Assembly (NCBI GenBank): GCA_029532415.1
Contig: JAQOTA010000053.1
Span: forward strand, 2,294,001 to 2,358,000
DNA: 64,000 nucleotides
Source: Marasmius tenuissimus
Taxonomy: Eukaryota; Basidiomycota; Agaricomycetes; Agaricales; Marasmiaceae
Reading direction: 5' to 3'
Shown in pieces: positions 12,516 to 38,802 of this stretch; position 1 is the first letter of the stretch; every line of letters starts with the position of its first letter. The position numbers and the translations under genes are program-made. The notes under the pieces were generated by a model. The model saw only the letters and a program-made list of their open reading frames with translations, did not search any database and was not told the DNA's origin.

Positions 12516-12578
12516 GAGGCGCCATTCTCTCCTTATGCTAGGATCTGAGCCTTTTACTAGCCGCTCGGGACTCGCTCT

Positions 12579-12962: not shown

Positions 12963-13074
12963 TCTAGTACTCGTATTACCTAGTCATTTCTTATCTGTTT
13001 TTTGCTGAAATCGCACAAAAACAAGGCTCCAAAGCTGCTTTTAATAGCAGGCGCTACATCGGAGGCCCACTGAG

Positions 13075-14800
13075 TGGTTTCCGCTCGTTGCATCTCACCC
13101 CATGAACATTCACCTCATCTCTTCGACCTTGGACCCCATGTCCATCAAATCTCTTCCTTCCCCCAAGAATCCGTCCAATCTGAATTTCTCCTCGTTCATA
13201 GACTTTCCAACCCTCATACCCCAACTTCAGACTCGCGATTGGCTTCATCTGAAATACCTATCCCCAATTGCAGTCCCCCCTTAGATTTGGTACCCGTTCG
13301 TGTCTCGCCACCCGAGCTGGGGTCCTCGACGACCGTAACACAACAGCCAATAAGCGGGCTCCAATTGGAGCGAGGCAGAGAAGGAAACGAAATGGATTAC
13401 CCATGCTCCAAGGGTTGTAGACGGAAACGTATGGACTTTCAAATGGGATTACCGCCACCGTACCAACGCGCCTTTCGAGTTTTTTGCTTGGATAGCAGAG
13501 ACGGGTGGGAATGAGATGGCGATGAAGGTTTCTAGCGGGGTGGAGTATGGGAGCGAGTTCGATCCTAACAAAGATGTTTTCGCAGAGGTCTATGGTCTCC
13601 TAGTTTTGAATACTGACGTTGTTTTATGTTCTCGATAATTATATGGATAAACAGCCAACTTGACGTTCGACATACCAGTGCGACAAGGCTCTGACCGGGC
13701 TGCTAGCTTTACCATTACTGCTCGACGTACCCTATGGGGCGGCAATCTACTTTGGAGCGGCCAGGTAGCCAGTAAGAATGCCCTCTCATGCTCCTTGTCC
13801 CTCGAATGATACTACGAGCATGGACACCGACTCACTGATGTAACACTGAGGATGGTGGGTAGACGACGGTGTCGTGCAAAAGCTTGTGAGCGGGTCAACC
13901 GTCGAGAGAGACTTTAACTATAAAGTCATTGGACGGGGCCTCGGGATCCGACTGCACCTAAGGTAGAAGCATTAGGATCGTGCATTATCTTCAAGGTACT
14001 ACAAGACAACAGACTACATATACTACAACGAGATCTCTGATAACGTGCCAAACCTCAGCGTCGGACGCGCCTCGTCCACTTGTGAAGTCTGACTAAATTG
14101 AGGAGGTATTTTAGTTCCGTGGCCTCACTGCCGCCGTACCGATGCGGGTTTCAAGTTTTGGCTTGGATAGCGGATACTTGTGGGAATGAGACAGCAATAG
14201 AGGTTTATAACGAGGCGGAGTTTGGGAGGGGGTTAAGTTCTACCAAAGATACTTTCATAGAGGTCTATGGTCTCCTGGTTTTGAATACTGTACGTTGTTG
14301 TATGCTCTCGATATTTATATGCATAAATAGCCAACTTGAAGTTCGACATACCAGTGCAATAAGACTCCGATCGGGCTGCTAGATCACTGCTGCTCGACGT
14401 ACCCTTTGGGGCGGCATATTTACTTCGGAGGGCGGTCAGGTAGCTACATAGTAAGAATGCTCTCTAATGTTTCCTGTACCCCAAAAAATACTACATGGAC
14501 ACCAACTTATTGATTTAAAATTGAGGATGGTGGGTGGGCAACGGTGTCAGCGGGAGACTAACTATGAACAGATTATCTAGCGACGGATTGACAGGTACAA
14601 CCGTCACTGCGTTGACGATGGAACTTCGGAAATCAAGTGCGTCTGAAAAAGAAACGTCGGGATCCATGATTTCTGAAGTACTACAAAATTTAAATAGCAG
14701 ACTATATGATACAGTGAAAGGTCTGACAACGCGGCAAGCTTCAGCGGATGTGCCTCGTCTACATGTGAAGTCTGACTAGATTGAGGAGGTATTTTAGTTG
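13075..14800 (+). pseudogene. Degenerate plus-strand gene relic with a 676-bp tandem duplication
   Basis: Sequence at 13,090-13,440 is related to 34,730-35,115. The following part (13,452-14,127) is repeated directly at 14,128-14,800, with period about 676. A third diverged copy sits at 35,115-35,890 and a short piece near 24,430-24,500. The recurring coding phrase gives FAWIA-[ED]-T-x-GNE and, further on, EVYGLLVLNT, but stops and frame breaks interrupt it in every copy. I recognise no function. It travels with the 3' flank of the minus-strand array genes, so it marks the duplication unit. Confidence 0.5.
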
Positions 14801-14848
14801 CATGGCCTGCAGAGATTGAGAACGAATGACTTTGCCTCGGACAGGATG

Positions 14849-15073
14849 TCAATTGACGTCCACGTCGAGTGTCCCCGTCGTAGTGGCTAGTTCACTGGAG
14901 ACCTCTGTGGGTAACGGGAGATACAATGGCGACCAAAAGCTGGTAGAGCCTAGCCGAGTCCCAGAGGTCGCAGACCTTGAGGGGGCTGATTCAATTGGAG
15001 TGACATCTTCGATCTCTTCGATGTTCGACGTCGGTATCAAAGATCTGCTTTCAGACGGAGTTTCTGCCAACAT
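14849..15073 (-). pseudogene. Stranded last exon of array copy A
   Basis: The minus-strand frame ends at a TGA at 14,849-14,851. It encodes the same Ser/Thr/Pro-rich tail found at the end of copies B-D (shared phrases GTRLG, FWSP, and a final acidic Asp-Val-Asp). The preceding acceptor (GTTGGCAG) and phase-1 join are conserved. The upstream exon is now separated from it by the insertion at 15,126-15,794, so it is probably no longer part of the protein. Confidence 0.6.
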
Positions 15074-15125
15074 AATTGAAGGTCAGGCAATGTCAGATGG
15101 ATGAGAGAGATGAAGTGAACCTTGG

Positions 15126-15794
15126 TTACGGATTCGGACTCGGAGTTTACGGAGAACCGTTCTTATCTGACCGAGGTGCACACTTTATCGTGTCCCCCGA
15201 TCAACTCGGACTTTACTACACAATTAGTGTACTTTTCGGGTCAATACCAACTCAATTTCCCCTTATTCGGCTTACTTCCTGGTAAATATCTCCAGTCCCT
15301 TATTTCGACCGGATAATTTCCTTTTTCACTGAGGTGCATTCGGACCAAATTGCATCCTTCACAATTTGGCCCCAGCGCCTGGACTAAGACTTCCACAGGC
15401 CTTCCTCTGTTAGTCATATACTGACAGTTAACTGCCTTCCTCTACTGTGCCTGCGTCGCGACATCTCAAGCTATGAGGAGCTGGCCATTGAATAATAAGG
15501 TCAGCGGCAGTACTACACACTGCACTATGGGCGCTACAGCATTTCCAGGCCGCAAAATAAATTTAAATCAATTGATTCAAGTACTACACTTGCACAATGT
15601 CTAGCCTACAACCTCCTACAACTGGTAGCTGAGTTGATAGCATATGTTTGAAATACTCACCGGTGCACAAAGGAGTACGTGATCACTAGCACTGATAATC
15701 AGTCAAGGAGGCGGAGGAGGAAAGGAAATTGCACGGCCCACGGAATTCGAATCCGTACTCGCCTGCTGCGCCGCGGCAGGTCCCACCTTATGAA
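15126..15794. mobile_element. 669-bp insertion in copy A with a B-box-like end
   Basis: In copies B and D the plus strand reads continuously from AACCTTGG into TGAA-TTC at this point. In copy A, 669 unrelated bases separate CCTTGG from TGAACTTGG. Near the right end, ACGGA-ATTCGAA-TCCGT (about 15,738-15,754) forms a perfect 5-bp stem with a 7-base loop like a tRNA T-arm, next to a GC-rich hairpin (CCTGC...GCAGG). This suggests a tRNA-derived SINE or other small element. No clean target duplication, A-rich tail or encoded protein is seen. Confidence 0.5.
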
Positions 15795-17604
15795 TGAACT
15801 TGGAACCGATCCGAGTCGTTCACAGGCTGAAAAAGGATATGATCATATCCGAGATGACGAGCGAAATCAGTAGTGGAAGGGTCGAATCCCCGGAGGAGCT
15901 GATATTGGTGTATGCGTTGGTAGTGTTCGTTGTGCCAAGAGCACCCGATGGACCGGGTCCCATAATCAAGCTCGTTGGGAAGACCGAGGGCGCGACAGGT
16001 ATCAGACGAGAGCGGAGAGCGACCATCTTTGTGAAAAGACCAATAATGAAGGGAAGAGGTTTTGTACCCAAACCTTGTCATCATCGTCTTCTTGCCCAGG
16101 TCGGGAGGTGGTGGGCGAACAAAGATGTAGGTTGGCTGTTGGGATTGTCGCTCGTGTTGGGCTACAGAGCGATCCAGAGAGCCGCTTGTCTTCAACCGAG
16201 CATAAAGGGGGACAAGGGCTGTGAAATGTTAACAGGTGGAAAGGGAATGCAATCTCAACAACGCACTGTAATCGCTCAAATCATCCTCCAAAGTGACTCC
16301 GCGATCGTGAAAGATTCTCCAAGCTTGCGACAGCCAGGCGAACTCTGTATTCTTTTTCAACTCCAAATAAAGGTCCAATGGACCAACGAGTGTGAATCTA
16401 CTCAAGCCGTCAGATAAACAAAGCACCTCAATTGCTTTCAGCTCACCTAGTCAGCCCATTTTCCAGTACTTTTCGATCTTTAAGACAATCGCCATTGCTC
16501 GTCCAGGCGATGTTTGCGGCGGCAATGGGCGTGTCTGTCGACTTTGAGATGACAGTTGAGTGGGAGACTTGTACATCGACCCGCGACGCAGACGAGATGG
16601 TTGAATGGATGACGTAGTGATCCACTTTCTCCGACTTCAGACTCGCCATGAAGCGCAACAAAACATCTTCTTGAAGAAGATCTGCCGTCAAAGGCAAGTC
16701 TGAGTCCCCAAACCATCGCCCTCCGTATCCGATCTGAAAGTCTGGCCCTGGTGGACCACGACAGATTACTCCCCTCCCACGATCCATCCACAGCTCGTCG
16801 CTCTTGCAACCCAGTTGTACCTGTAACCAGTTCATTCGAGTGTATCCAAATATTACAATGGCTACTCACAGCTACAGTACTCAGATACATCAGACCCAAC
16901 TTCTCCGTATCGCTCTCCAACTGCGATGCCGGTGCCAGATCTACAATAAAAACATCAGCGAGACCCGACCCAGAGCATGCCTCCACCTACCGTTGTACAA
17001 TATGAGTGATGGAATGGACGACTTGCTATACCCATAGATTTGCGACGCATTTGACGTCCTAGCGTGACATGAGCATCCATAATAAATGACAATTGGAGGG
17101 AGTACCCACAGTGTGGTCGATAGCATCCGAAAGTCTTCAAGAAAAGCCTGGGATGGGAATCAGACTATTCCTTGAACTCGAAAATCAATAGGCATACCAT
17201 CTGTGCATCTGGTCCGCTATACTGCAGCATTGTAAATACCATTCCCGGTTGCTCTAACACCCTTGCTGTACAGATTGTCTTGTCGGCCCGAGGCCCACAT
17301 ATATCTTTCCACCGCTCTTCTCCCTTGTCGTCCAACCATCGCGGGTACGTGGAAGACCCAACATCCCTCAGCTTGAAGATCCCGCCGAGCTTCAGCTTGA
17401 AATACTGAAACCAATTATCAGATTCTTGCGAATCGAAGAACTGTATCCTCTCACCTCATCGAATTCTGAAGGTTCCTCCTCCTTCGCTTGGATGATAGTC
17501 GTCGTATAATTGTTGTTGTTGTTGTACTGATCTCCCTGAACCTGGTTGAAGGTACCGCCGAAGATCCGAAAGTTCCGCGCCTTGTGGAAGAACTGGGAGG
17601 CCAT
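15788..17604 (-). CDS. Array gene copy A: GGxFN-motif protein of unknown function, truncated
   Basis: Starts at ATG 17,604 (MASQFFHKARNF) and follows the eight-exon path seen in B-D. Exon 1 carries GGTFNQVQGDQY and a poly-Asn run and ends at FDE; the intron begins GTGAGAGG. Later exons carry LRDVGSSTYPRW, the YSGPDAQ block, SNASQIYGYS, DLAPASQL, LWMDRGRG with CRGPPGP, AWLSQAW, then SSLHYWSF and FDPSTTDFARHLGYD. All joins keep frame. After DSDRFQVHS the frame hits TAA at 15,788-15,790, inside the 669-bp insertion, so about 70 C-terminal residues are lost. A 27-base in-frame insertion follows DLGK relative to the other copies. No catalytic motif is recognised. The family is familiar as unannotated multicopy mushroom proteins. 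Confidence 0.65.
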
Positions 17605-17959
17605 TGAGACTGTGGGTGAAGGGGCTTGGTAGAGGGGAGAAGGTGATAGTCAAGGGACAAGGCAAGTCGTCCGGATGCAGCGTGGTTGACGCATCGTGAT
17701 ACTCAAAAGCAACACCTCATTGGGATCGCCGCACCAGACCCGCGATATTGCACGACCGCTGACTTTATCGATAGGAATCAGACTCCTGTCACTGTGTCAG
17801 CGGCACAGTCCGAGAATAAGACTCACCGCAGTAGTAACACCGTCTTTGGATTTCTAGCTTCTATCACGGTGTATACCCATTCGAGGTTCGTGTAGAGACT
17901 TTTGATGAGGCGGTACGCTGCGTGGTCGACAAAAAGTAGACCTGAAGCATGTCCCTACC

Positions 17960-17997
17960 TGACGATGGCAAGCATGTATGTATGCTTGCCATCGTCA
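17960..17997. repeat. Perfect 16-bp inverted repeat, 6-base loop
   Basis: The left arm TGACGATGGCAAGCAT (17960-17975), loop GTATGT and a fully complementary right arm (17982-17997) form a strong hairpin. It lies within an extra segment of about 85 bases, absent from the equivalent place upstream of copy D, so it came in with a small insertion or expansion. Confidence 0.8.
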
Positions 17998-18199
17998 CAG
18001 TCAGGTCAGTTACAGGCCTAGACAAAAAGGCTCCAGGGAGAGTTGAACATTGGTTGTGAGAAGAGAGAAGCTGTCGGCCCAGGCCTGAACAAAATCCTCT
18101 CAATAAGCGCCCACTGACGATGGGGCTTTCAGTCAAACCACGACCACCACAATGCCAGCACCCAAGTACCAACGCCTCCTTCTGGATCTCACACCTACC

Positions 18200-20800
18200 G
18201 ACAAGCTACCGACAAGCAAAATGAGACGATAAAACACTCGTTTGGTGTCTCGTTTCGAAATTCGCGAGGCTGTTGCGCGGTCCTTCAGCGTCCCAAGACC
18301 TCAGGCTTACTCCTACCAGTGCCGAAAGCACTCGTTCAATGACGATTACGCTCAATGATTCGCAGTGCCTTGAACTCACCCTGCAAGCTAGAGGAACTGG
18401 CCTGACTGGGGATGGTGAAAGAGCAGGAACATCATCGGCGGTCATGATCATCACAGGTACGTGTTAGTTGAATGCCACTATGCCCAACCCTAGTTGATAA
18501 CCTCCAGAGCATCTAAGAGCATCCTTTCTTTGACCTTGTGTCGCTCCGTGGTTCTCAACGTCGAATCGTTTTACTCCCATCTCAGACTACCTTCAATAAC
18601 CGCGGGAAGAGTCTACCTGGTCAGTGGTGAAGAATAACGCGGTCGAAGAACGAAGAACTAGGTTCTGAAGAATCACGAGGACGCACACCGAGGCTTCAAG
18701 TTACCTCGAACCACACTCACTATGTGGTACGCGGGCGTGAAATATTTATCTCCGAGTTCAAAAAGGTGTCTACTACAACGCTGGGTCAGTATAATCTCTA
18801 TAATCGCGCTGATCCAGGCTCAACTCACCTCCACCGGCAGTCGCGTCGACCTCTACAATTCCGAACGCCGTAATCCCGAAGCAAGATCTCCAACGCGCTG
18901 GCTCAGGCATTCCCTACGAATGCCGCGTCTTCGAAGTTCGACTGTCGATCTCGGTATCAGTCCGAGATGATAGGTACCAACTGGGCGTACATGTTCTCGC
19001 CTCTGACATTTGTATCCCCTCATTCTAACCTACATAACAACGTAGACCTGGGTCTGCATAGGTGATGTTCACGGGACAGAGCTGGAAGTCGCATGAGACA
19101 TCCTATCGAACAGATTGATCAGGTACAGAGGCAAACCTATAAGCGAAACAAACCCATAAGCGAAACATTTTGATCCTGGGCTCGCACAAGGAGATATTTT
19201 CAAGCGGCCTTTTTTTGTACAATGCTATCAAACTTGTGGAATACACTGCCGGTTGTTAGAAGGGCATCGTCAGCGGTATGGCTTCACGAAAAATGAAAAA
19301 ATACCCAGAATTTCGGAAAAATGGGACAAAATCACCAGAATTTGGCTCTCTGCCCTGATTTCTGCCAGGTCAATTGCTTGAAGCATATCTATGAAGGTGT
19401 TAGAGTCATTCCAAAATGTGTTTTGGGGACAGAGGCTCGTCATGTTGATGAGAGCGCAATTTTCCCGCTACTGACGTAAGGAAGTAGAAGGGTATTTACC
19501 AGGCTAAAAAAAAAATCTCTTTGCGTGGAAATTGCACATTGGCGCTGAAAATTCCCTTTCATGGTAACGAATAAGCGCCATAACAATACAAATGCCCCCA
19601 AATAGGCGCCGCCATTCAAATATGAGCGCTTTCTGGGCAGAGTTCTAAACAGAAAATTCCATGCAACTCCGGCTGGGGGGAAGGACGACTGCTCCCCAAC
19701 GAGATGTCCGTGGGTTAATTCGGACAACCCGGGACAAAATCAGGTCAATCGGGGCTACTTCTGACAACTTTGGACTAACCGGCGTCTGATGGACAAAAAT
19801 AAACCGCCCTTATCATCCATCTTCCCTTTTTTCTTGTAACTCACAACTCTCTCGCACCGCTTTCATCAACTTGAGGATTCGAGAGGACCTCGACTTCGGT
19901 GCAAACACAACTTCGGGTCGGACATCAAATTTATGGTCCGTGCGTTCGATTGATCTTGTTTGGCACCTGTCCGAGTTTCTCACATATACTCACATCCACA
20001 TTCCAGCCTCCCCACTGTTTCTTTCTTCCTCTCCGCCATCATCGACACTCCCTGCCCTTACCATATGCCGTTGTCGACGCACCGGTATACAGTCTCGAGC
20101 GCGTCTGTGGGGTTTAGTGCAACATAGTAACGACCAGGATGATGATAAGACACAAGGATGGTCCTCAGGTGCGTATCACGGTGATGATAGTGTCAATATA
20201 TGGTGCTGACGCGTTTTGCTCTACTTCCAGTAACTTCGGACGTCGCTGTTTCGAATCAGAACACTTCGTGAAGATACATACGAGCCCAGAACCGACCTTG
20301 TGCTCAGCGGTTCCATCTAGTCGGGTTAAACGCATTGTCGATGCGGTGTTCGAGCCAACCAGGTGCAGTAATCACGTGACACGGTGAAGGACACTTGACT
20401 TATCCATTTCTCTCTGAGTCCTGCAGCACATTACATAAACTACAGGCGCACCTCCTTCGAGATTATACCCAATGGAACAAGTGGCAACAGCAACCTAGCC
20501 GGCAAGGGTACGTCTCTATTTTACCCTTTCTACTGTCTATGCCGCTTGCTTATATTTCGATATTCCTGTGCTAGTTTCGCGGACATTGGAAGACTCAGTC
20601 AGTGCGTGGGCAAGTCGGGCAGTCAGTCATACAGAATTTCCCTTCTGCGCACGGTAGGCTATAGTTTATACACGGTAGCTAGACATGTACTTCTGTAATC
20701 AACAAATATCACCTGAATTCAGCGGTCAAAAGAGGGTGATTCGGTACAATTTGGAACAACCCAGCCTGACCTACCCCACGCCACCTATGTGTCCCACCCA
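18200..20800. other. Upstream flank of copy A and unassigned sequence
   Basis: 18,000-18,210 matches the upstream flanks of copies B, C and D (the CGCCCAC-x-GACGA phrase). Beyond that no gene can be supported. Open frames are short, without domain content, and stops interrupt every candidate exon chain. A poly-A run near 19,507 and repeated GGACAAAAT phrases (19,323-19,800) suggest repeat-derived DNA. Confidence 0.4.
19123..19169 (+). repeat. Inverted partner of 23,951-23,980
   Basis: GTACAGAGGCAAACC...AAGCGAAACATT here is matched by the reverse complement at 23,951-23,980. The left copy contains a 17-base internal duplication (two AAGCGAAAC units). The two lie 4.8 kb apart facing each other, either as ends of one element or as two small repeats in opposite orientation. 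Confidence 0.55.
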
Positions 20801-20802
20801 GG

Positions 20803-20853
20803 GTCACAAAGTAGCCGACACATCACCATCTGATGTGGCCGCTACTTTGTGAC
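20803..20853. repeat. 23-bp near-perfect inverted repeat, 5-base loop
   Basis: Arms 20,803-20,825 and 20,831-20,853 (outer part GTCACAAAGTAG) pair with three mismatches around the loop CCATC. It lies just before the left copy of the inverted duplication and may mark a breakpoint or a small element. Confidence 0.75.
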
Positions 20854-21790
20854 AAACTACAGCGACGTCCCCACGGTCCTCATTATCTCCCGTTTACCTC
20901 CCCAATATCTCGATACCTCTACCCATATACCTTCAAGTCTCTTCACCGCGCCTCCCTCTCGACATCATCCCGACACTTGCGTCATCGTTGCTTATTTTGG
21001 CTGGCATCCAAATCAGGCCAAACTTGTCATTTTTTTCTGGTCGTTGTTGTCGTCTGAGCAGCCGTCGTCGGCGGCACTAGTCACTGCCAGCTCATCAACC
21101 AAATTCAAACTATCATCCTCACATCCACCCACATTGCCGGCCTCTCATGGCACTCTAGTCGCCTTATTATCACTCACAGATGTCCAACGTTGTTCACCAT
21201 GTGCATTATAATACCATTAACAGCCGAATTCTTACAGCTCCAATGAGTCGGATGACCGATGTTAGTATCGCCTACGCCTGGCTCTGGCACGGCGTATCAA
21301 ACTTCAAAGCCCATATCCGGTTTTTGCTTTGATACTTGTTGATGTCGAACCATTCCAGTGTCATTCACACAGTGATTCCGAGGAGCATCAAAAGGAGAAT
21401 GAGGCCGGATGGGAGGTAGAAAATTTGCAAGTACGTGACAAGCCAATTTTCTCTCTTGTTACCCTCACCGTTTTCACGCAGTCACTCGAAATACTTTCAT
21501 CGGGCTCTCAGAAACTTCAGGCCGCCAAGTGGCACAGTCTCTTGTTCGGCACTCTCTGTGTTACACGACAAAGTTCAAACACCGTGCTTACGGATACATC
21601 AGTCTATGTTTTGCTGCCTGGCCCCACTCACACCGTGCGTATGACCCATCATGCAATGAAGTCCAGAGTCCCAGGTCAGCGTTCATTGAACTCATCCAGC
21701 ATGGTATTGCGTGAGTTTCTTAACTTAGATTCGGGGCTGGAAAGCAATATCCCCACGGCTTATATTGGGACTAGACGGTGTCACTGAACA
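20854..21790 (+). pseudogene. Left arm of an inverted duplication, decayed gene relic
   Basis: 20,986-21,090 is the reverse complement of 23,556-23,665 at high similarity, including the phrase that can be read as LASKSGQTCHFF in one frame. Similarity fades but continues: a stretch for FKAHIRF near 21,300 corresponds to FEAHITF near 23,325 on the other strand. Candidate exons with donor-like sites (for example near 21,431) exist but no unbroken reading path was found. Function unknown. Confidence 0.4.
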
Positions 21791-22744
21791 TTGCACTCTT
21801 GGGTGGAAAATCCGGAGTCTGAGACCGGTAATAGGGTTCATTGATCTAGGTGTACATAGTCGCGCTTCCTTTATAAACATACTCGCCGCCGGATATACTT
21901 GAGTTATACATACGACCGAGAGACTTGTAGTCCACGAAAGTCACGTTGATTTGGCATGGCAGTACTTGGTGATATGTCCTATTGGACTGGCGTCATGATG
22001 GACTGGTTGAGCATGATATAAAGCATAACTGACAAGGTATATTGCGAAATCGCACCAATACGAAGTTGGGGACGGCGGGGAAATTGACGATGTCATCCAA
22101 TTTATGTCATCATTTTGCGGATGGGAGGGAAGTAAATCGTCCATCGACGATGTTCTACTTCACAAGCTCCTTAGAGGCTCTAGAAATAGCATCCCGAAAT
22201 GTCTATGTACCCCATACTTCGAAATGGTACCGGTACCTGGCATGATGAAAAAGTCAGGAAACATGTATCTGGATTGACCGTGTTCGCGCGTTTTGACATG
22301 TACCTTTACCCTTCCTTTGTCGTCTCATTTGACAGACCTTTGTGAACACCTCAAGCAAACTTCAGATTATCTTTAGCACATCAGATTGACTTTAAATTCA
22401 TGGTATCTGAGTGTTGTGCTACGTTATTTAGCTAATATTCGACAAACCAAGTTGAAAGGATCTATTACATTGTGTGACACTCTCGACAGGTTGAATCTGA
22501 CGTATTCAAGAATTAAGACCGCTCGAGATTTGACAATGGCAGTTTATTATCCTTACTGTTCAGCTACTGTACATTCCCGATACTGATATTCATCTAATCA
22601 AGTGGTTGTTCAACGTTGAGATAAAGCCCGGTCAGTCAAACTAGTAGGAGGCATGGCCCGTACTGCGGAAGTCACTCCCTTCACTGCCTCCAATTCTTAT
22701 GCCCTCGTTTGTCAAATCTGTGGGAGTATGAGCTAAAGCAATAT
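21791..22744. other. No gene recognised
   Basis: AT-richer spacer between the two inverted relics. No frame with splice support, no RNA gene and no repeat shared with the rest of the window was found. Confidence 0.4.
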
Positions 22745-23863
22745 TCAAGAGTCAGAGGGAATGAACACAGGATCATGATAGTGCCCAGTCAGACCTTGAA
22801 GCGGTTCAGACTTGGTTTGGGCGTCTTCAAATTGCGGTAGGTTGATGTCGAGATGACTGGAAGCGATAAAAGTGTTGATTTGCGTGATACCGCAAGATAT
22901 CGGTACATGGTGTGCTGGAAGCTTCAAGCCGGTGGGTGTTTGTTTGTTTCGCGCTGAGCGGCACTTGATTCTGAAGAACCTAACGATGATTGATAAGTGT
23001 TGATCTAGATCGACTTCAAAGTAATCATACTCCCGCGGGTGACAGTTGAACTGCATGGTTCACGTTAGTGAGGTACAGACAGAATAACACTCTCATGCGC
23101 ACCTCAATCCCAATTCCCGAGTTTCACTCATCTCAAAGATCCCGACATAGTTGGAATACACAACATGAGGAATAGTAGTTTTGAGGGCAACCGAATGAAC
23201 GGTGTGGGTTGAAGTATTGACGTCGACGGTCGGCAGAGGTGATGGTGGATTACGGGCGACAATATTATCACTCAGTGCTTGGGCGAGTTTGTAGGGAGTT
23301 GATCAGAACTACGCATCGAATGTAATGTGAGCTTCAAAGGATTGAAAACTCTGAGCATCAAACCGTGGTGCAGAGGAATTTTTGACTGACCTGAGATGGT
23401 GAGCTGGGACAGTGATCAGCATAGCGCATGGTGACACCGAGAAGTATACTGTGTGGATGGAGAGGCCGGTGATATTCTTGAATCTTGTTAGAAGAGATTT
23501 GATGATAGTGTACATTGGCCCAGCTGTTGGATGCGACGGCGATGAGATAGGATGAGATGGCAGTAACTGGTGACTGTGACGGCGGCTGCTCAGACGACGA
23601 CGACTACCAGGGGGAAAAAAATGACAAGTTTGGCCTGATTTGGATGCCAGCCAAAATAAGCAACGTTGGACGCGCCTTGGATATATCAAGTCAAGGAAGC
23701 TGTCATTACCACGGCCACTGCTTTTTGAGAGGCCAGCGTGCTTGATGATGAGTGATTCTGGTAGTTCATGCAGTCGCCAACAGATAGGTGCAGGCCCCAC
23801 ACATAATTTTCCCGAAATTTTGGGATTGTGGGGCCGAAATTTACACAACTTTTGACGGCTCAA
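22745..23863 (-). pseudogene. Right arm of the inverted duplication, possible decayed gene
   Basis: Minus-strand open blocks lie at 23,309-23,863 and 22,745-23,056, with a further open block between them (about 23,110-23,310). They look exon-like, with a donor GTGCGC and an acceptor ATGCAG flanking about 50 bases near 23,055-23,105, but the join shifts frame, so the gene is probably broken. The 184-residue block shares its middle with the plus-strand relic at 20,986-21,090. No domain is recognised. Confidence 0.4.
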
Positions 23864-26797: not shown

Positions 26798-28895
26798 TTA
26801 ATCAATGTCCACATTGAGAGTCTGCATCGTAGTGGCCAGGTCACTCGAGACATCTGTGGGTGATGGGAGGAATCCGGGTAACCAGATTCCGGTATGGCCT
26901 AGTCGAATCCCAGAGGTCGCAGGTTTTGGAGTTGGTTCAACTGGAGCGAAATCTTCACTCTCCTCCGAGATGTCGAATGTCGGCGTCAAAGACCTACTTT
27001 CGGGTGGGGATTCTGCCAACAAAATTGAAGGTCAGGCCGCAATGTCAGAGTGATGAGAGTGATGAATCGAAACCTTGGTGAAATTCAAATCGGTCCGAGT
27101 CATTCACAGGTTGGAAAAGTAATAATCCATCATATTCAAGATGACGAGCGAAATCGGTAGTGGAAGGGTCGAATCCCCGGAGGAGCTGATAATCGTGTAT
27201 GCGTTGATAGTCTTCATTGGGCCAAGAGCACGTGTTGGGCTCGCCCCAATATTCAAGCTCGTTGGGAAGGCCGAGGCCGTGACAGGTATCAGGTGAGAGA
27301 GCAGAGCGACCATCTTTGTGGAAAGACCAATAATGAAGGGAAGAGGTTTTGCACTTGCCCAGATCGAGTGGTGGGCGAACAAAGAGGTAGGTTGGCTGTT
27401 GCGACTGTCGTTCGTGTTGGGCTTCAGAGTCATACCAGTAATAGTCGTCGGTCTCTAACCGAGCGCTGTAAGGGCGGACAAGGTCTGTGAAGAGTTAACG
27501 AGTGGAAAGGGAATGCAAGCCCAACAACGCACAGTAATCGCTCAAATCATCCTCCAAACTTATTCCGCGGCCGTAAAAAATCGTCCAAGCTTGCGATATC
27601 CAGGCGGATTCTGATCTGTAAATCGGATTCCTCCCCAACGAAAGATACCAGGGTGAACCAGTAAGCGTGAATCTACTCGAGTTGTCAGATAATCAAGTGA
27701 ATGATTGCCTCAAACTCACCTCGTCAGCCCGCCTTTCAGTACTTTTCGATCTGAAAGTTGATCATTCCAGCTCGTCCAGGCGATGTTTGCGATGTTTGCA
27801 GCGACGGCAATGGGCGTGTTTGTCGACTTTGAGATGACAGTTGAGTGGGAGACTTGTACATCGACCCATGACGCAGACGAGGTATCGGCGATGAATTCAA
27901 TGACGAGGCGATCCACTTCATTCAAGTCCATCTTGAGACTCGCCAAGAAGCGAAAGAAAACATCGCGTTGAAGAAGTTCTGCCGTCAAAGGCACGTCGAA
28001 ATTCCCCAACCATCGCCCTCCCCATCCGATCCGAAAGGCTGCTCCTGGTGGACCACGGCAGAACATTCCCTTCCCACGATCCATCCACAATTCGTCGTCC
28101 TCGCAACCCAGTTGTGCCTGTAACCAGTTCATTCGAGTGTATCCAAATAGTACAATGGCTGCTCACAGCTACAGTACTCAGATACATCAGACCCAACTTC
28201 CCCATATCGCCCATCAACTGCGATGCCGGTGCCAAATCTACAGTAAAGCATCAGCGAGACCCGATGCAGAGCATGCCTCCACGTACCGTTGTACAATATG
28301 AGTGATGGAATGGACGATTTGCTATACCCATAGATTTGCGACGCATTCGACGTCCTAGCGTGATTTGAGCATCCATGATAACGACGATTGAACAGATAGT
28401 ACGCACAGTGTATTCGATAACATCCGAAAATCTTTCAAAAAAGCCTGGAAAGGGTTGTTAGACCGTTCCATGAATTCGAAAATCAATAAGCGTACCTTCA
28501 GTGCATCTGGTCCGCTATACTGCAGCATCGTAAACACCATTCCCGGCTGCTCTAGCACCTTTGCTGTGCAGAATGTCCTGTCAGACCGAGGTTTCCCCTC
28601 TTCCCCCTCCCACCTATCCCCGTCGTCCCATCGTCGCGGATAGGTGGAAGACCCAACATCCCTCAGCTTAAAGATCCCACCGAGCTTCACCTTGAAATAC
28701 TACGACAATCATCAGATTCTAGCGATTCGAAAATCAAGTTTGTCCACTCACCTCATCAAATTCTGAAGGTTCCTCCTCCTTCACTTGGATAATCGTCGTC
28801 GTAAAACTACTGTTGTATTGATCTCCCTGAACCTGGTTGAAGGTACCGCCGAAAATCCGAAAGTTACGCGCCTTGTGGAAGAACTGGGAGGCCAT
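26798..28895 (-). CDS. Array gene copy B: GGxFN-motif protein of unknown function
   Basis: Starts at ATG 28,895 and ends at a TGA at 26,798-26,800. It has nine exons whose joins all keep frame, about 560 residues. Exon 1 (48 residues) has GGTFNQVQGDQY and a KEEEPSEFDE end. Exon 2 carries LRDVGSSTYPRRW and LEQPGMVFTMLQYSG. Exons 3-5 are short (SNASQIYGYS, DLAPASQL). Exon 6, about 134 residues, carries LWMDRGKG, CRGPPG, PLTADLLQ and STNTPIA. Exon 7 carries AWISQAW. Exon 8 carries SSLHYWSF, GLGLPNEL, YQRIHDYQLLRGFDPS and TDFARHLEYD. Exon 9 is a Ser/Thr/Pro-rich tail. No stop or frameshift was found. No signal peptide, membrane segment or catalytic motif is visible. The MITE at 29,153 sits about 260 bases upstream of the start. 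Confidence 0.75.
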
Positions 28896-31273
28896 CAAAA
28901 CTGTGGGCGAAGTGGTTTGGTAGAGGGGGGGAAGGTGATGGTCGAGGAATAAGACAAGTCGCCCAGATGCATCGTGGTCAACGCATGGTGATGCTCAACA
29001 GCAGCACCCAATTGGGACCTTCGCCACACCAGACCCGCGACGTTATTATTGCTGTCAGGGGGCACATTCCGAGAGTCCGAGAATACGAGTCATGACTCAC
29101 CAGAGGAGTAACACTGCCATTGAGATGCCAGCTCCTGTTACCATTCAACATTAGGGGAATTCAGAGTAACTTTCAAACGTCGATTTCGAGCTGATTTCGA
29201 GCTGATTTCGAGTTTGATTTGGACTCAAAAAAAATCGAAATTGGCTCGAAATGGGCTCGAAAGTGGGGAGCTCACAGTGTGGTAGCGCATTTCAATATAT
29301 AGCGGCTCTCCCAGCGGGGCCGTGTGCGGCGGAGTTTTGAATACCATTGCGTCAGTGCTTGTACCGTATCCCGTTTATTGATCGATCTCCTTAAAAATTA
29401 AAATGATAAATCGCATTTCTCTCTAGACTCTGTCAAGTCCCGGCTCATGCGTACAACTGAGCGACAGGATGCAGGCTGTTTGGCGGGTTTTTTCACGGAT
29501 ACGGGCTGATTTTCCGAGCCCAATGGTTGGTTTGTCCTTTTTGGTGGCATAGTTAGAGCGAAGTAAGTAGAGTAACAGAAATGAACACTGCTTGTGGACG
29601 CACGTCTCCATTCAAGCTCAGACAAGCCCCGCCGCGCTCGGGAATAGCCGAAATTCAATGTGAAAATGAGCTCGAAATCCGTGAAATCCATGATTTTCAT
29701 TTCGTCACATTTCATCTCAAATCGAGCTTGAAATCAGCTCGAAATCGACGTTTGAAAGTTACTCTGAATTCCCCTATTACTCGTATCCTAACAGACTTTC
29801 GACGAGGTGGTACGCTGCGTGGTCGACAAGTTGGATATCAAGGTGCTGTCGGCCCGGGGCCCGGAGGAAATTCTGAAGAGCCTCAATAAGCGCCCACCAA
29901 TAACGAGGTTCTCGCTCAAACCGTCGTGACGCCAACATTCAAGCTCAATGCCAGTGCATTCTACGCTTCCTTCTGAACCTTCAAAAATTGCATTGGGTCT
30001 GGACTCTGGAGTCTCTCGAATACTATGGAACCCGTTACACCTGGAATACGAAGGAGCATGGATAGGCATGGATCTCTCTCAGGGGCCCGTGTACGTCTAC
30101 CGTTCTAAAACCTCAGCTGGTCTCAAAGACCCCTTCGGCCATGGTAGACGGCAAAAATGCCAGCACAAGGGACAGGCATATTCAGACACTCTCTTCACCC
30201 TCAATCCTTGATGGTTCAATCATTCAAGGACTTCACGTATCACAAAACATCCCGGACCTCATGCACTGGTTGCAAGTCTTCGTATACCTCCCGTTCAGAG
30301 CTCGACACAACAATGCCGGATCTTTATTCATGATCAACACCTCCCATCGTTATTTCAAACTTTGTTGCAGCTCTCTCCTCACTACTTACAACCGCAGCCG
30401 GGTACTCTCAACCTGGTGAACATTAAAGACTACCCCGCCTCCTCGTCACGGTGAGCGATCGAGGACTCCCATACCTTCATGTTCACCCAAGTGTTTACAG
30501 AATTTCTATGTTGGTACTGGGGCGGTGGTCCCCATCTCGTTGGGTTAGCTCTCCATACATTTTCTATATTCGTCGGCGGCGCTGGAGGCAGCTCCTGAAA
30601 CGATGACACGACACTCACTGTCGCCGGGGACTAATCAGAGGTCTCTGTATAATTAGGAGTTCTCAAACTACGTCCTCCCAGCTAAGCTAGGGATGTGCAT
30701 GAACCAGCGGACTGATTCCCATAGCCAGCAGAACATTCACGTTTAATGACGATTCAAGCGACAAGAGAAGGAAGGCTGGGCATTTGGTCGTTTACCGGGA
30801 GACAGCCTGGAATTGTTTGAGAACCAGGTACGGAGGATGTACCAAGACTTCCTAGATCTCTGCGCCGTACGAGTTGAACTTCAAGCCGCTCACCGGGCAA
30901 TGATCGTACACAACGTTCGTCACCGATATAAACGCTTGTTAGTGCCCCGCAGCTTTTCGAAGATGCCTCCCAGCAGAGGCTCAAGCGCTCAAGGCCAGAG
31001 CGACGGTGTTCAGTAGGATTTCTCTGCGTCGAGCACTATGAGTACATATGGGCCGATGTCGGTTGATGTGCCGTCAAAACTTAAGTGGCCCGAGATGGAA
31101 CATCGAATTCAGTAATGTCGGGATCCATTGAATGATTACTCCAAGAATAACAGACTGAAGCACGCCGAACCCTTTTTGTTGAACGCGCCCTCGTCTCCTT
31201 GTGACGAGGAGAGGGAGAGGAGATGCATGGCCCTCAGAAATACAGAACGAGTAACATTACTTCAAATACAATG
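28896..31273. other. Upstream flank of copy B, MITE, and flank repeats
   Basis: 28,900-29,150 and 29,779-30,110 are one upstream flank, homologous to those of copies A, C and D and split by a MITE. 30,140-30,480 is the block shared with 25,370-25,640. 30,500-31,270 shows no gene. No intact protein is supported in this stretch. Confidence 0.5.
29153..29775. mobile_element. 623-bp MITE with perfect 46-bp terminal inverted repeats
   Basis: Begins AGGGGAATTCAGAG and ends with its exact inverse; the first and last 46 bases are perfectly complementary. ATT flanks both ends (29,150-29,152 and 29,776-29,778). Removing the element and one ATT restores the local sequence of the copy D flank (CAACATTACTCG here, CGACGTTACTTG there), which proves insertion with a 3-bp duplication (ATT, or TTA if the ends are shifted by one base). 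A 3-bp duplication fits PIF/Harbinger-like elements. A minus-strand frame starting MPPKRTNQ (about 29,400-29,552) could be the truncated start of a former transposase. Confidence 0.88.
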
Positions 31274-33374
31274 TCAATCAACGTCCACCTCGAGGGTCTC
31301 CATCGCAGTAGTTGGTTCACTAGAGACCTCTGTGGGTGACGGGAGGAATGCAGGCGACCAAAAACCGGTATGGCCGAGTCGAGTTCCAGAGATCGCAGAT
31401 CTTGGAGTCGGTTCAATTGGAGTAGAATCTTCACCCTCTCCCGAGCTGTCGGATGTCGGTGTCGAAGGTCTACTCTTGGGCGGAGATTCTGCCAGCAAAA
31501 TCGAAGAGGGTCAGGCAATGTCAGAGAGCGATGAGAATGACGAAGCAAACCCTCGTAAATCTCAAACCGATCCGAGTCGTTCACAGACTGGAAAAGGTTA
31601 CTGTCATATCCAGTATGACGAGCAAAATCGGTAGTGGAAGGGTCGAATCCCCGGAGGAGTTGATATTGATGTATGCGTTGGTATTCTTCGTTGTGCCAAG
31701 AGGACCCGGTGGACTTGTTCTCACATAAAAGCTCGTTGGGAAGGCCGAGACCGCGACAGGTATCGGGTGAGAGAGGAGAGCGACCATCTTTGTCAAACGA
31801 CCAATAATGAAGGGAAGAGGTTTTGCACTTGCCCAGGTCGGGAGGTGGTAGACGAACAAAGAGGTAAGTTGGCTGTTGTGACTGTTGCTCGTGTTGGGCT
31901 TCAGAGTCATCCAGAAAGTCGTCGGTCTTTAACCAAGCGCAAGGGCAGACAAGATCTGTGAAGAGTTAACAGGTGGAAAGGGAATGCAAGCCTGACATGG
32001 ACAACGCACTGTAATCGCTCAAATCATCCTCCAAAGTGACTCCACGATCGTGAAAAATTCTCCAAGCTTGCGACAGCCAGGCGCGTGTTGTAATTGACCA
32101 CCAATTCCAACCCAAAAAAATATGAAGACCGGGACGTGGTGGGCCAGCGAGTGTAAATCTTCTTGAGTTGTCAGATATTTCAAGCGAATGATTGCCTCAA
32201 ACTCACCTGGTCAGCCCATTTTCCAGCACGTTTCGATCTGAAAGATAAGGGCCGAGATCGAGACTCTCCCAGGCATTGTTTGCGGCGGCAATGGGCGTGT
32301 TTGTCGACTTTGAGATGAGAGTTGGTTGGGAGACTCGTACATCGACCCGTGACGGAAAAGAGGTGATTGTATCAATAACGTAGAGGTCCACTTCCTTTGA
32401 CTTTAGACTTGCCAAGAAGCGCAACAAAACATCGTCTTGAAGAAGATCTGCCGTCAAAGGCAAGTCTGAGTCCCCAAACCATCGCCCGTCGTATTCGATG
32501 TGAAAGTCTGGCCCTGGTGGACCACGACAGAACACTCCCCTCCCACGATCCATCCACAATTCCTTCTCATGCTTGCAACCCAATTGCACCTGTAACCAGT
32601 TCATTCGACTGTATCCAAATATTACAATGGCTACTCACAGCTACACTATCAAGATACCTCAAGCCCAATACCCCTAGATTCCTATTCAACTGCGAGGCCG
32701 GTACCAGATCTACAATAGAAACATCAGTAGGTCCCGACCCAGACCATGCCTCCACGTACCGTTGTGCAATATGAGCGATGGGATAGACGACTTGCTGTAA
32801 CCATATATTTGCGACGCGTTCGAGGTGCTAGCGTGAATTGAGCATCCATAATAACGAAAATCGGAAGGATACTACGCACAGTGTATTTGATAGCCTCCGA
32901 AAGTCTGCTAGAAAAGCCTGAAAGGGAATTAGGCCGTTCCTTAAGCAAAAGAATCATTGAGCGTACTCTCTGCGCGTCTGGTCCGCTATACTGCAGCATT
33001 GTAAATACCATTCCCGGCTGCTCCAAAACCCTTGCTGTACAGATTGTCCTGTCGGCCCGCGGCCCACATATATCTTTCCACCACTCTTCTTCCTTGTCGT
33101 CCAACCATCGCGGGTACGTGGAAGACCCAACATCCCTCAGCTTGAAGATCCCGCCGAGCTTCAACTTGAAATACTGAAACCAATTATCAGATTCTTGCGA
33201 TTCAAACAAAAACATTATCCCCCCCACCTCATCGAATTCTGAAGGTTCCTCCTCCTTCGCTTGGATAATCGTTGTCGTATAGTTGTGGTTATTGTACTGA
33301 TCTCCCTGAACTTCGTTGAAGTTGCCGCCGGTAATCTGGAAGTTCCGCGCCTTGTGGAAGAATTGGCTAGGCAT
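31274..33374 (-). CDS. Array gene copy C: GGxFN-motif protein of unknown function
   Basis: ATG 33,374 to a TGA at 31,274-31,276. Exon 1 is 33,228-33,374 (49 codons, with ITGGNFNEVQGDQY). Intron 1 is 33,174-33,227, 54 bases with no stop, so reading through it also stays open. Exon 2 starts at 33,173 and has the PRWLDDK version also found in copy A. The remaining joins keep frame through LWMDRGRG, CRGPPGPD, AWLSQAW, SSLHYWSFDKDG, HQYQLLRGFDPS and DSDRFEIYE into the Ser/Pro-rich last exon with an acidic end. It appears complete. The N-terminal glycine motif resembles the short leader motif of many mushroom NACHT/STAND-like and orphan proteins; that link is from memory and its function is unknown. 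Confidence 0.75.
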
Positions 33375-34420
33375 CGAATCTGTGAGCGGAAGGGTTTGAT
33401 AGAGGGGAGAGGGTGATGGTCAAGAGATAAGGCAAGTTGCTCTGATGCATCGTGGTCAACGCATGGTGCTCAACAGCAGCGCCTAATTGTCACCATCGCA
33501 GCACCAGACCCGCAATACTGAACGACCAATGTCTATATCGGTGCGAATCAGACTGCTGTTGACGGCGCAGCCCGAGAATAAGACTCACCGCAGTAGTAAC
33601 ACCCTCTTTGAATCTACCTCCTGTCACGGGTTCTCATCCAATGTTCTTGCATCCACACAGACTTTTGATGAGGTGCTACGCTGCAGGCTCCAAGCTTCAG
33701 GGAGAGTTGAACATCGAGGTCGCGAGAAGAGAGCTGTCGGCCCGGACGAAACTTCTGAAGGGCCTCAATAAGCGCCCACCAATGACGAAGTTCTCGCTCA
33801 AACCACAAACAACGCGACGCCAGCATCCGAATGCCAATGCCTTTCTCTGGATCTCACCCCCCGCCGAAGAGCAAGATAAAACCGTAAACAAACTCGTTTA
33901 GAATTACCGGACTCTCATCTCGAAATCAGAGGAGCTTTCACCTGGAATGGGACGGAGAATGAACCAACTGTGGTATTCCAGCTAGGACATGTACTTCTAC
34001 GTCTTAACCACTTCAGCTGGTTCGAAGTCGGAGCCTTGATGACATTGGATGCCAGAAACAGAGGCGTAGTCGAAAGGTCGGCTCCAAAAGTAGAGTCGAG
34101 CAACTAGGTATGTCTTTCTCCCCGGTTTCTTCTTCTGTAAGTGCTTGGGATCCTCATACAGAGAGACAGGCGAGGGGGTGAAACTTGATTGTAACGTTGA
34201 GCCGACACGTACTGCGTCTATGGTTCTGAAAACTAGGTTCACATGGTATCGCGGGGCGTGAAGACCTCGAGCGAATCCATGGAAAACTTTGACGGATCTA
34301 CTATCGGCGCAATCCAGCAGGTTCGTCCTCACCTTTATCCGGTCTGCTAACAATTATAGCTCATCTTCCTTGTATCAGACTTGTTTTGGCTCGGCAAGCT
34401 GTCCGAAGCCTCTCCATACC
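33375..34420. other. Upstream flank of copy C
   Basis: Matches the upstream flanks of A and D closely up to about 33,870 (phrases AGAATAAGACTCACCGCAGT and CTCAATAAGCGCCCACCAA), which probably hold the shared promoter. No TATA box stands out. 33,900-34,420 shows no supportable gene. Confidence 0.45.
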
Positions 34421-35923
34421 GCGAGTTTCGGTGTACGGCGCTAGTTACATGCTCATGTTGTTGGCCATGTACCCCAATAGAGGATTAGTTTTGACGATAT
34501 TCAGATTTATGCAGTCCGTCTGCTTACTCGGGTATGTATGAATTCTTCCTTTGATTTACTTGTATCAGATCGCTGACTGACGCCAGGGCGATACACTTGT
34601 ATTCCGGACCCACGGAGAATCCTCACAAGAGAGCTCGTTCCGGCGCGCCGAATTCGAGGTTGTCGATATCAGTGTCCCTTTAAGTGCTATCAGCATGCTC
34701 TTGCCGCGACACCCTACTCCATGTATCATGTATCTTCACCTCGTCTCCTCAACCTTGAGACCCGTGTCCATCAAATCTCGTCCTCCCGCTATGAATCGGC
34801 TCGCAACCCGAATACCTCCTTGCCTATAGGCTATTGGCCTGATCTACAACTTCACGCATCTCCCAAACGACATACATGTACTCCTCACTCCCGGAGGCAT
34901 GTGGAAATCTCGAATCCACGATTAGCTTCATCCGGCACACCTACCCCCAACTGTAGTACCCCACTCTCAGCATTCGTACAGGTTCACAGCTCGCTACGCA
35001 AGCTCGGGTCCTCGACGACCGTGATACAACGTTCAGCGAGCGGGCTCGGGTGGGCAGAGGAGGACTTTGGAACAACACGAATTGAATTACGCATGCTCTA
35101 CGGGCTGTAGACGGAAACTCGAGTGGGGTCACTGCCGGTGCTGATGCGGTTTTGGGCTTGGATAGCGGAGCCGGGAGACTTGTGGGAATGAGACAGCGAT
35201 GGAGAATTATAGCGGGATGGGGCACAGGAGAGAATCGAAATTCTACCAAGGATCTTTTCGCAGGGATCTATGGTCTCCGGTTTTGAGGATATCGAGAACT
35301 GACGTTGTTGTGTGCCCTCAATATTTGTATGTTTAAGTAGCCAATTTACAATTCAAGTAAGACATACCAAGGCCAGAAGACTCATACTTTGCCGCCACGA
35401 CAGACTACAAGTATAATCATTACCATCACTGCCCGATATACCCCATGAGCGGTATCGTATCTTAGAGGGCGGCCAGGTAACTAAGAATACCCCCTCATGT
35501 GCCTTATTTCCTAAATGATACTACGAATATAGACACCAACTCATTGATATAGTACTGAGGATGGTGGGTGGGTGACGGTGCTGGCGTCGCGTAAATGCTT
35601 GCGAGTACATGTTCATGTGGCTCGGCGGGGGACTATGACTCGGGATCATCTAGCGACGGTTTCACAGGTACGACCGCCGATGCATCAACAAGGAGGCAAT
35701 GGAATTCAATCGCGTCTACAATATTTCTAAAACATCGGGATCCTGCATTATCTTTGAAGCACTACAGAACGACAGAGTACATATGATGTAGCGAAAGCTC
35801 CCATGACGCGCTAAACCTCAGCGAACGCACCTCGTCTACTTGAGAAGTAACTGAATTGAGGCGATATTTGAGTTGCGCGGCCGGCCGAGATTCAGAACGA
35901 ATGACTTTACCTCGAACGAGATG
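34421..35923 (+). pseudogene. Plus-strand relic, third copy of the 13-14.8 kb sequence
   Basis: 34,455-34,690 is related to about 920-1,135. 34,730-35,115 is related to 13,090-13,440 and 35,115-35,890 to 13,452-14,127 and its tandem copy. The open frame at the left can be read as MLMLLAMYPNRGLVL followed by a GTATGTATGA donor, but later parts are interrupted. It lies in the same position relative to copy D as the relics at 13-14.8 kb do relative to copy A, which supports whole-unit duplication. Confidence 0.5.
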
Positions 35924-37988
35924 TCAATCGATGTCCATGTCGAGGGCCTCCGTCGTAGTGACCGGTTCACTTGGGACCTCTGCGGGTAACGAGAGGAATA
36001 TGGGAGACCAAAAGCTGGTGTTGCCTAGTTGAGTCCCAGATCTTGAGGCTGGTTTAATTGGAGCGAAGTCTTCACTCTCTTCAATGTCCGATGTCGGTGT
36101 CAAAGATCTGATTGCTGGCGGAGTTTCTGCCAACAAGATTGGAGAAGGTCAGGCAGGCAATGTCAGATAAATGAGGACAATAAAGCAAACCTTGGTGAAC
36201 TTCAAACCGATCGGAGCCATTCACAGGCTGGAAAAGGGGCCGATCAAATTCAAGGTGCCGAGCAAAATCGGTAGTGGAAGGGTTGAAATCTCGGCGAAGT
36301 TGATATTGGTGTATGCGTTGGTAGTCTTCGCTGTACCAAGAGAACGCGTGTGACTTGCCAGCATATCCAAGCTCATTGGGGAGACCGAGGCCACGGCAGG
36401 CATTGGGGGGGAGAGGAGACCGACCCTCCGCGTGAAAAGACCAATAATGAAGAGAAGAGGTTTCACAATCATGTAGGTTGGAAGGAGGCAAACAAACAAA
36501 GAGATAGATCGGTTGCTGCGATTGTAGTTCGCATTGGGCTTCAGAGTCAAACAGAAGGTCGCTGGTCCGTAATGAAGCGTAAGGGAAGACAAGGTCTATG
36601 AAATGTTAGTGGGTGGAAAGGGAATGAAAGCTTGACCACGCACTGTAATCGCTCAAATCATCCTCGAAACTGATTCCATGATTATAAAAAGTTCTCCAAG
36701 CTTGTGACAGCCAGGCGCGTCTTGTAAATTCCCACCAATTACAACTCAAAAAAATACCGGAACACGGTGGGCTAGCGAGTGTAAATCTACTCGAGTTGTC
36801 AGATCATCAAGTGGATGATTGCCTCAAACTCACCTAGTCAGCCCATTTTCCAACACTTTTCGTTCTGAAAGACAAACGCTGTTGCTTTCCCAGACATTGT
36901 TTGCGGCGGCAATGGGCGTGTTTGTCGAATTTGAGATGACAGTTGGTTGGGAGACTCGTACATTTGGCAGGTAAGAGACGTTTGATTCAATGACGTAGCG
37001 ATCCGCTGCCTTCGACTTCAGACTCGCCACAAAGCGCAACAAAACATCTTCTTGAAGAAGATCTGCCGTCGAAGGCAAGTCTGGCTTCCCAAACCAGGAC
37101 ACTGCTCCGCGTCTGACAACAGCTGGTCCTGGTGGACCACGACAGAACACTCCCCTCCCAGTATCTATCCACAATTCGCTGTTGTCCGTGCAACCTAATT
37201 GCTTCTAGAACCGGTTCTCTTGAGCGCATCCAAATATGACAATGGCTACTCACAGCTACACTACTGAAATACCTCCTGCTCAGCTCCCATGGCTTCCCCT
37301 TCACCGCCAACTGCGAGGCCGGTGCCAAATCTACAGTAAAATAATCAGTGAAACCCAACCTAGAGCATAGAACCACGTACCGTTATACAATATGAGTGAT
37401 GGAATTCCCGACTTGCTGTAGCCATAGATTTGCGACGCATTCGACGTCCTAGCGTGACATGAGCATCCATGATAAATGAAAATTCGAGGGAGTACGCACA
37501 GTGTATTCGATAACATCCGAAAATCTTCAAGAAAAGCCTGGGATGGGGTTCAAACTATTCCTTGGGCACGAAACTCAACGTGCGTACCTTCTGTGCATCT
37601 GGCCCGCTATACTGCAGCATCGTAAACACCATTCCAGGCTGCTCTATCACCTTTGCTGTACAGAATGTCCTGTCAGCTCGAGATTGGCCCTCTTCCCACG
37701 AATATCTATCCCCGTCGTCCCATCGTCGCGGATAGGTAGAAGAACCAACATCCCTCAACTTGAAGATCCCACCGAGCTTGACCTTGAAATACTATGACGA
37801 TCGTCAGATTCCTGTGATTCGACAGATAACTTTTATTCATTCACCTCATCAAATTCTGAAGGTTCCTCCTCCTTCGCTTGGACAATTGTCGTCGTAAAAC
37901 TGCTGTTGTATTGATCTCCCTGAATCTCGTTGAAGTTGCCGCCGGTAATCTGGAAGTTCCGCGCCTTGTGGAAGAACTGGTTAGGCAT
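35924..37988 (-). CDS. Array gene copy D: GGxFN-motif protein of unknown function
   Basis: ATG 37,988 to a TGA at 35,924-35,926. Exon 1 has ITGGNFNEIQGDQY as in copy C but the following Ser-Ser-Phe-Thr and PRRWDD parts as in copy B. All nine exons read in frame. The acceptor before exon 6 has moved (CTAGAAG), which removes one codon compared with the others. The exon 6 PP-motif stretch has diverged (GPPGPAVV). Conserved blocks include PSTADLLQEDV, AWLSQAW, SSLHYWSF, HQYQLRRDFNPS and TDFARHLEFD. About 555-565 residues. It looks intact and shows no sign of a secretion signal. Confidence 0.72.
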
Positions 37989-38802
37989 CGAATCCGCGAG
38001 CTAGCGGAAGGGTTTGATGGAGGGGAGAAGGTGATGGTCAAGGGACAAGGCAAGTCGCTCAGATCCATCGTGGTCAACACATGGTGATGCTCAACAGCAG
38101 CATCCGATTGGGGCCTTCGCCGCACCAGACCCGCGATACTGCGCGTCCACTGACTTTATCGATAGGAATCAGGCTGCTGTCAGCGGCACAGTCCGAGAAT
38201 AAGACTCGCCGCAGTAGTGACACCGTCTTTGGAATTCTAATTCCTGTCACGATGAGTTCCCATTCGACGTTACTTGCATGCAAACAGACTTTGGATGAGG
38301 CAGTACGCTGCGTGGTCGACAATCAAGCTTCAGGGAGAGTTGAACAATGTCGAGGTTGCGAGAAGAGAGCCGTCGGCCCGGGCTCGGACCCCGGACGAAA
38401 TTCTGAAGGGCTTCAATAAGCGCCCACCAACGACGAGGTTCTCGTCGAGTCGCTAAAAAACCACCTCTACCACGACAACATCCACATTCCAATGCCTTCT
38501 TCTGGACCTCCCGTTCGTCAACGCATTTAAATTGGGTGACGATCAAACGCGTTTAGATCGGTTATCGGAGCCTCGTCACAAAATCAGAGAAGCCGTTGCA
38601 CCCGCAAACTTCACAAATAAGATGGATAATGAATCTGTTACTAGCAGTACTCCAGTAGTACTCCAGCCAGCGTGTGTACGTCTACGTTTTAATACTTGGA
38701 CCTGAGGTTTTGGCTGCATTACACGGCAGAAACGGTACATGTGTATGAGGGACGGGCATTACCGTCCTCGAACGGTAGATCCCGAAAGCGAGAGTAACCT
38801 GA
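37989..38802. other. Upstream flank of copy D
   Basis: Homologous to the flanks of A-C as far as about 38,520, and again in a short ACGGCAGAAA...GGACGGGCATT phrase near 38,720-38,762 that recurs near 25,380 and 30,145. This is the right end of the duplicated array. No gene is seen. Confidence 0.5.

Follow-up and report, generated by a model that had tools for sequence, protein, structure and literature searches.

The 64,000-nucleotide stretch of Marasmius tenuissimus DNA analyzed here (the window; C10:2294001-2358000 of a 71-Mb assembly) comes from an agaric described as an agent of cacao thread blight (PMC8581569) and carries an array of four related genes, copies A-D. These genes are best explained as belonging to a giant, tandemly expanded family of proteins that combine a short N-terminal leader with a pseudokinase-like and a novel domain, a reading that we consider evenly balanced when taken as a whole. 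The leader itself is very probably shared, by homology, with some NOD-like receptors (NLRs).

A conserved leader at the start of each gene

The array occupies positions 14852-37988 of the window, a correction of the span of 13000-38800 given by an earlier, sequence-only reading, and all four genes lie on the minus strand. As that reading had described for an exon of 49 residues, every copy opens with an exon of 48-50 residues that holds the motif GG-x-FN-x-[VI]-QGDQYN: 17455-17604 in copy A (50 residues), 28752-28895 in copy B (48), 33228-33374 in copy C (49) and 37845-37988 in copy D (48). The motif codons, CARGGNGAYCARTAYAA, occur four times in the window, always in exon 1 and with zero mismatches, where chance would supply 0.03 occurrences when up to one mismatch is allowed. 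The first aromatic pair falls at residues 5-6 in all four copies, placing the motif at the very N-terminus, and the leader core reads F-x-I-x-GG-x-F-x-x-[VI]-x-GD-Q, which contains a G[DN] pair and three hydrophobic positions. These observations show that exon 1 encodes a leader module that is strongly conserved and forms the extreme N-terminus of the family's proteins.

A family spread across the genome

The four copies first described are present, but that number understated the family. Five further open copies lie at ~C10:2,232,000-2,251,400, roughly 43-62 kb before the start of the window (four share the nine-exon phases of the array, and the fifth is modelled with one extra intron), and additional leaders sit between them and the window. 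Genome-wide, a leader query close to the consensus gave 219 candidates at a first look, of which the best 150 were scored and all matched, and an exon-8 query matched 150 of 150 (the best of 593), giving at least 150 exon-8 matches. At least 78 of the 150 leaders have a listed exon-8 match 0.8-3.5 kb downstream on the same strand, compared with 10 in a mirror control; 12 of the 150 exon-8 matches fall on contigs C9 and C59, which hold no leader among the matches listed. Splice-aware alignment of 29 leader loci recovered the family domain in 24 (partial or broken in two, L024 and L027) and none in the remaining five, in line with the proposal that the leader also precedes unrelated parts. In leader genes L042 and L043 (C3:3740200-3753500), the family domain can be recognized in its first piece only, and L043 runs on into a polar stretch and then a hydrophobic, membrane-like segment; both are possible truncated regulators.

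Relatives in the protein database number 211; each of the best 120 bears the name Marasmius, in most cases Marasmius sp. AFHP31, and the leader pattern is present in 85 of these 120. Several relatives reach 820-950 residues through the addition of a long low-complexity tail, often with a second GNQ-type motif after the leader. In long relatives such as P0084, P0097 and P0110, this tail of ~350 residues includes a basic patch resembling KRQR/KRRR that may be a nuclear signal.

Related leaders on NLR genes

Leaders were compared with 166 NACHT places in the genome, overlapping ones entered once. None of the 150 family-type leaders had a NACHT match within 10 kb downstream on the same strand (NB-ARC was not searched for), the closest leader-NACHT pair in any arrangement was 5.3 kb apart, and no pairing of family genes with NACHT genes was seen between these two sets. 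When the N-termini of eight NACHT genes were read in three frames, a GG-type leader was present in L054 only, a GRDQ motif in four and neither in three: few NLRs carry the GG leader.

The L054 N-terminus begins MFSNASRFTIIGGLFANVGRDVVNN, and when its leader was used as a query all three candidates matched, itself included, each directly upstream of a same-strand NACHT match. An NLR leader on C63, which reads MFTNSKNFTITGGQFNNIGHDYV, matched nine of nine candidates, comprising three NLR leaders (itself included) and six entries from the family-leader list, of which L009, L035, L037 and L039 are modelled as family genes and the other two lie on C23; the E-values of these bridging matches were 0.0016-0.09. 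We scored six NLR leaders, trimmed to 26-28 residues, against a profile built from family leaders only, with 20,000 shuffles of each leader as its own control. The NLR-leader score was reached by 0 shuffles for L063, L064, P0126 and P0128, by 2 for L054 and by 29 for P0129, such that the family profile beats shuffles for five of the six leaders and does so more weakly for the sixth, P0129. The signal was weaker for 80-residue N-termini measured against pooled shuffles (16,783 scored), of which 1 reached the score of P0126, 6 that of L054, 12 that of P0128 and 40 that of P0129. The L054 gene has a relative in P0126, an NLR from Marasmius, and P0128 and P0129 are NACHT proteins of Moniliophthora roreri. 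Family and NLR leaders have the same register, FTITGGxFNN[IV], straight after the start.

The expectation that similar leaders precede NACHT/STAND proteins is borne out by L054, by two further NACHT leaders, and by the Marasmius and M. roreri NACHT proteins. Because related leaders precede these proteins, and because five of the 29 modelled leader loci lack the family domain, the motif is not confined to a single family; such confinement was what the sequence-only reading had named as telling against it.

The GRDQ motif is a second N-terminal motif before NACHT, separate from the GG leader. With a GRDQ-class leader as query, all nine candidates, the query included, lay just upstream of a listed NACHT place (contigs C16, C2, C10, C34 and C5). 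The GRDQ-class leaders tested do not match the family profile and score like shuffles, L058 being a marginal exception. Separately, at C7:1766593-1770513 a NACHT frame lies 3.6 kb from an exon 8 of the family in the same orientation, and the two could be an adjacent NLR/family pair.

A predicted kinase-like body that changes fast

When five pieces of the window genes, each from a single exon, and ten relatives were compared with Pfam, no family scored above its threshold, which agrees with the proposed lack of any recognized catalytic domain; neither NACHT nor NB-ARC was matched in these same pieces and relatives, and no HeLo/MLKL-like helical bundle was matched in the ten relatives, the models being mixed alpha/beta. 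In the predicted structure of a relative, residues ~48-200 match kinases in both Foldseek and VIA. No significant sequence match to protein kinases was obtained, no beta3 lysine is present in columns 104-112 of the alignment, HRD occurs in 0 of 87 sequences, and the letters DFG occur in 5 of 87 but are displaced, leaving no conserved DFG. It is quite probable, judging from this model, that the front half is kinase-like but inactive. The C-terminal half is modelled confidently without a match in the PDB and may represent a fold not yet deposited there. By the models of relatives P0002 and P0080, the body begins with a kinase-like fold without beta3 lysine, HRD or conserved DFG and continues into a second, confidently predicted fold. 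Projected onto copy D, exons 2-5 (37254-37791, minus strand) would encode most of the kinase-like part (~residues 49-177, fold taken from P0002), and exons 6-9 (35927-37204, minus strand) would encode its end, then the C-terminal domain, which has no match in the PDB, and finally a tail modelled as disordered (P0002 and P0080). The sequence-only reading had held that an ordinary enzyme fold would count against it; the outcome is intermediate, as the modelled front half resembles a protein kinase but lacks the catalytic residues, and the modelled back half has no match in the PDB.

Ratios of nonsynonymous to synonymous substitution rates (dN/dS) were estimated for the 36 pairs of nine C10 genes, with copy A represented by exons 1-8 only. 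The median was 0.13 in both the motif and the linker, 0.19 in residues 49-160, 0.53 in 161-205, 0.75 in 206-330 and 0.40 in 331-478, making the leader the most constrained part of the protein and residues 206-330 the least; sliding-window ratios of nonsynonymous to synonymous differences (pN/pS) peak at 1.04 (residues 309-332) and 0.94 (250-268). Constraint on the leader is tight, and the protein's middle part evolves rapidly. Because dN/dS among copies A-D is 0.35-0.53 and their frames are open, we argue that the genes are functional now or were so until recently.

Structure and surroundings of the array

Exons were called by splice-aware alignment of each copy to a hand-spliced copy D, using an aligner that accepts GT..AG introns only, such that the GT/AG intron ends hold by construction. 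Copies B (26801-28895), C (31277-33374) and D (35927-37988) have nine exons each, encode 562, 560 and 550 residues, and share intron phases 0,0,2,1,0,2,1,1. Introns measure 47-64 bp across the array, except in copy A, whose exons 8 and 9 are 736 bases apart, and there are no in-frame stops in exons 1-9 of B-D or in exons 1-8 of A. Pairwise amino-acid identity among the four copies is 68-80%. Nine exons with identical phases and proteins of about 560 residues, as originally attributed to the whole array, therefore describe B, C and D, but not copy A (14852-17604), whose phases agree in the first seven introns only. Its exons 1-8 (17604-17455, 17404-17198, 17147-17110, 17058-16991, 16940-16870, 16820-16447, 16397-16267 and 16218-15800) contain 486 codons, followed by three further codons to a stop at 15790-15788, and an exon-9 counterpart lies at 15063-14852. 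Between exons 8 and 9 is a repeat of ~640 bp (15135-15770, minus strand), which occurs elsewhere in the genome as near-full copies at 97% and 92% and as a partial one at 96%. The 3' end of copy A is damaged by this repeat, and the gene either ends at the read-through stop past exon 8 or splices the 736-bp intron.

Beside the array, window positions 3676-12516 hold a Copia-type long terminal repeat (LTR) retrotransposon, probably a recent insertion, with 525-bp LTRs that are 99.8% identical and a single 2253-aa open frame containing gag, integrase and RVT_2 domains. Imperfect inverted repeats at 12579-12962 and 29152-29776, with arms of 117 and 85 nt, may be short non-autonomous elements, one close to the array and one within it. 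On the other side, 39014-41372 is a tandem pair with 75.6% DNA identity, and a frame in its second copy matches a BTB/POZ domain.

A possible role in homotypic signaling

We propose that the leader acts as a homotypic, probably amyloid-like beta-arch, signaling motif. A trigger would be sensed either by the body of a family member or by an NLR, whereupon the leader would assemble with compatible leaders, and the activated member would be joined in polymers with the proteins that bear them. The fast-changing body (residues ~156-332) would act not as an enzyme but as the surface of a sensor or adaptor. In fungal signaling for self/non-self or intracellular defense, the family would then be either a partner of the leader-bearing NLRs or a receptor arm that runs parallel to them. 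The earlier suggestion of homotypic signaling in allorecognition gains from the sharing of leaders with NLRs and from its consistency with a published Agaricomycete NLR motif group described as amyloid-like (PMC9815663), whereas amyloid behavior and the immune role are what we infer. The chances that the leader takes part in homotypic signaling appear even, as they do for the explanation as a whole, and those of a role in immunity or allorecognition fall slightly below that.

The leader could instead be a non-amyloid short binding or targeting peptide, e.g., a beta-hairpin docking to a common partner, that was shuffled as an exon onto NLRs and family genes that have no common pathway. We consider this unlikely: it suits a very short leader, encoded by its own exon and conserved at the very start, as well as the leader loci without the family domain, the membrane-like stretch of L043 and the missing pairing of family with NACHT genes, but it fits poorly with a leader rich in Q, N and G and with the second GNQ-type motif of the long paralogs. 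We find it improbable that the family is an intracellular regulator outside immunity, such as a pseudokinase scaffold, that owes its size to tandem duplication, with the NLR leader a side borrowing and MLKL-like pore formers the true NLR partners. Transposable elements in and beside the array, an overall dN/dS below 1 among A-D, and MLKL-like C-termini that share motifs with NACHT N-termini in two species (PMC9815663) all favor such a regulator, but the family has its leader in common with NLRs beyond shuffled controls, and at least 150 copies with a tight leader and a fast body are what would be expected of a recognition family. That NLR and family leaders merely converged on a low-complexity N/G/Q motif is very improbable, since controls of equal composition and the identical register right after the start outweigh the shortness of the motif, the shuffle-like scores of GRDQ-class leaders and the modest E-values of the bridging matches.

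Comparison with known systems

The homotypic reading finds its closest published counterpart in NLR05/08/22/29/44, an Agaricomycete group of NLR N-terminal amyloid-like motifs described as usually extreme N-terminal, with a core (~25 residues in the aligned set) that has three hydrophobic positions and ends in a C-terminal G[DN] pair, present in dozens of copies per genome ahead of NACHT or NB-ARC, and proposed as a variety or homolog of the HET-s-related amyloid motif (HRAM) (PMC9815663). The family leader, likened to this group by description only, is also N-terminal and has the hydrophobic positions and the G[DN] pair within a core of ~25 residues; unlike the group, it stands at the front of a family whose genes, at least 150 in number, are not NLRs, and none of the four window genes continues into NACHT. 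Table 1 of that survey gives no matches for the group in C-termini of neighbors or effectors, and the survey as described found no partner for the abundant NLR N-terminal motifs among neighbors and known effectors, with just two species-specific candidate pairings genome-wide, in which NACHT N-termini share a motif with MLKL-like C-termini: one in M. roreri, where the motif has 18 residues, and one in Fibularhizoctonia (PMC9815663). Its searches, as described, covered neighbors, known effectors and MLKL-like proteins (PMC9815663), and would therefore have missed a family like the present one. A very large family, unannotated, whose leader is of this kind and occupies this position is a concrete candidate partner for NLR motifs. 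More tentatively, and with a doubtful chance of being right, these genes may represent a mushroom superfamily of receptors or adaptors that are not NLRs, with 150 to several hundred copies in a single genome, in which a leader of amyloid type is joined to an inactive kinase-like domain and to a new fold. Having this leader in common with some NLRs, the superfamily would be a large and unsuspected set of partners for the amyloid-like motif of Agaricomycete NLRs.

HET-s/NWD2, HRAM, sigma, PP and PUASM pairs share with this proposal the idea of a short common motif linking an NLR to a second protein. In HET-s/NWD2 and other fungal amyloid pairs, the motif is described as C-terminal on the effector, which is often encoded beside the NLR gene (PMC9815663), whereas here it is N-terminal on both proteins, the body is predicted to resemble a kinase, and the genes were not seen to be paired. 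For PUASM, GFP fusions have been expressed in Podospora (PMC9815663).

The predicted fold of the front half likens the family to protein kinases and pseudokinases, from which it differs in the missing catalytic residues and sequence similarity noted above and in its second domain without PDB match. RHIM/RIPK-MLKL necroptosis pairs a homotypic amyloid motif with kinase or pseudokinase bodies. The family resembles this system by analogy only, in its motif and kinase-like body, and we claim no sequence relation; if our reading is right, the joining of a homotypic motif to an inactive kinase would independently echo the way in which kinases are linked to cell-death signaling.
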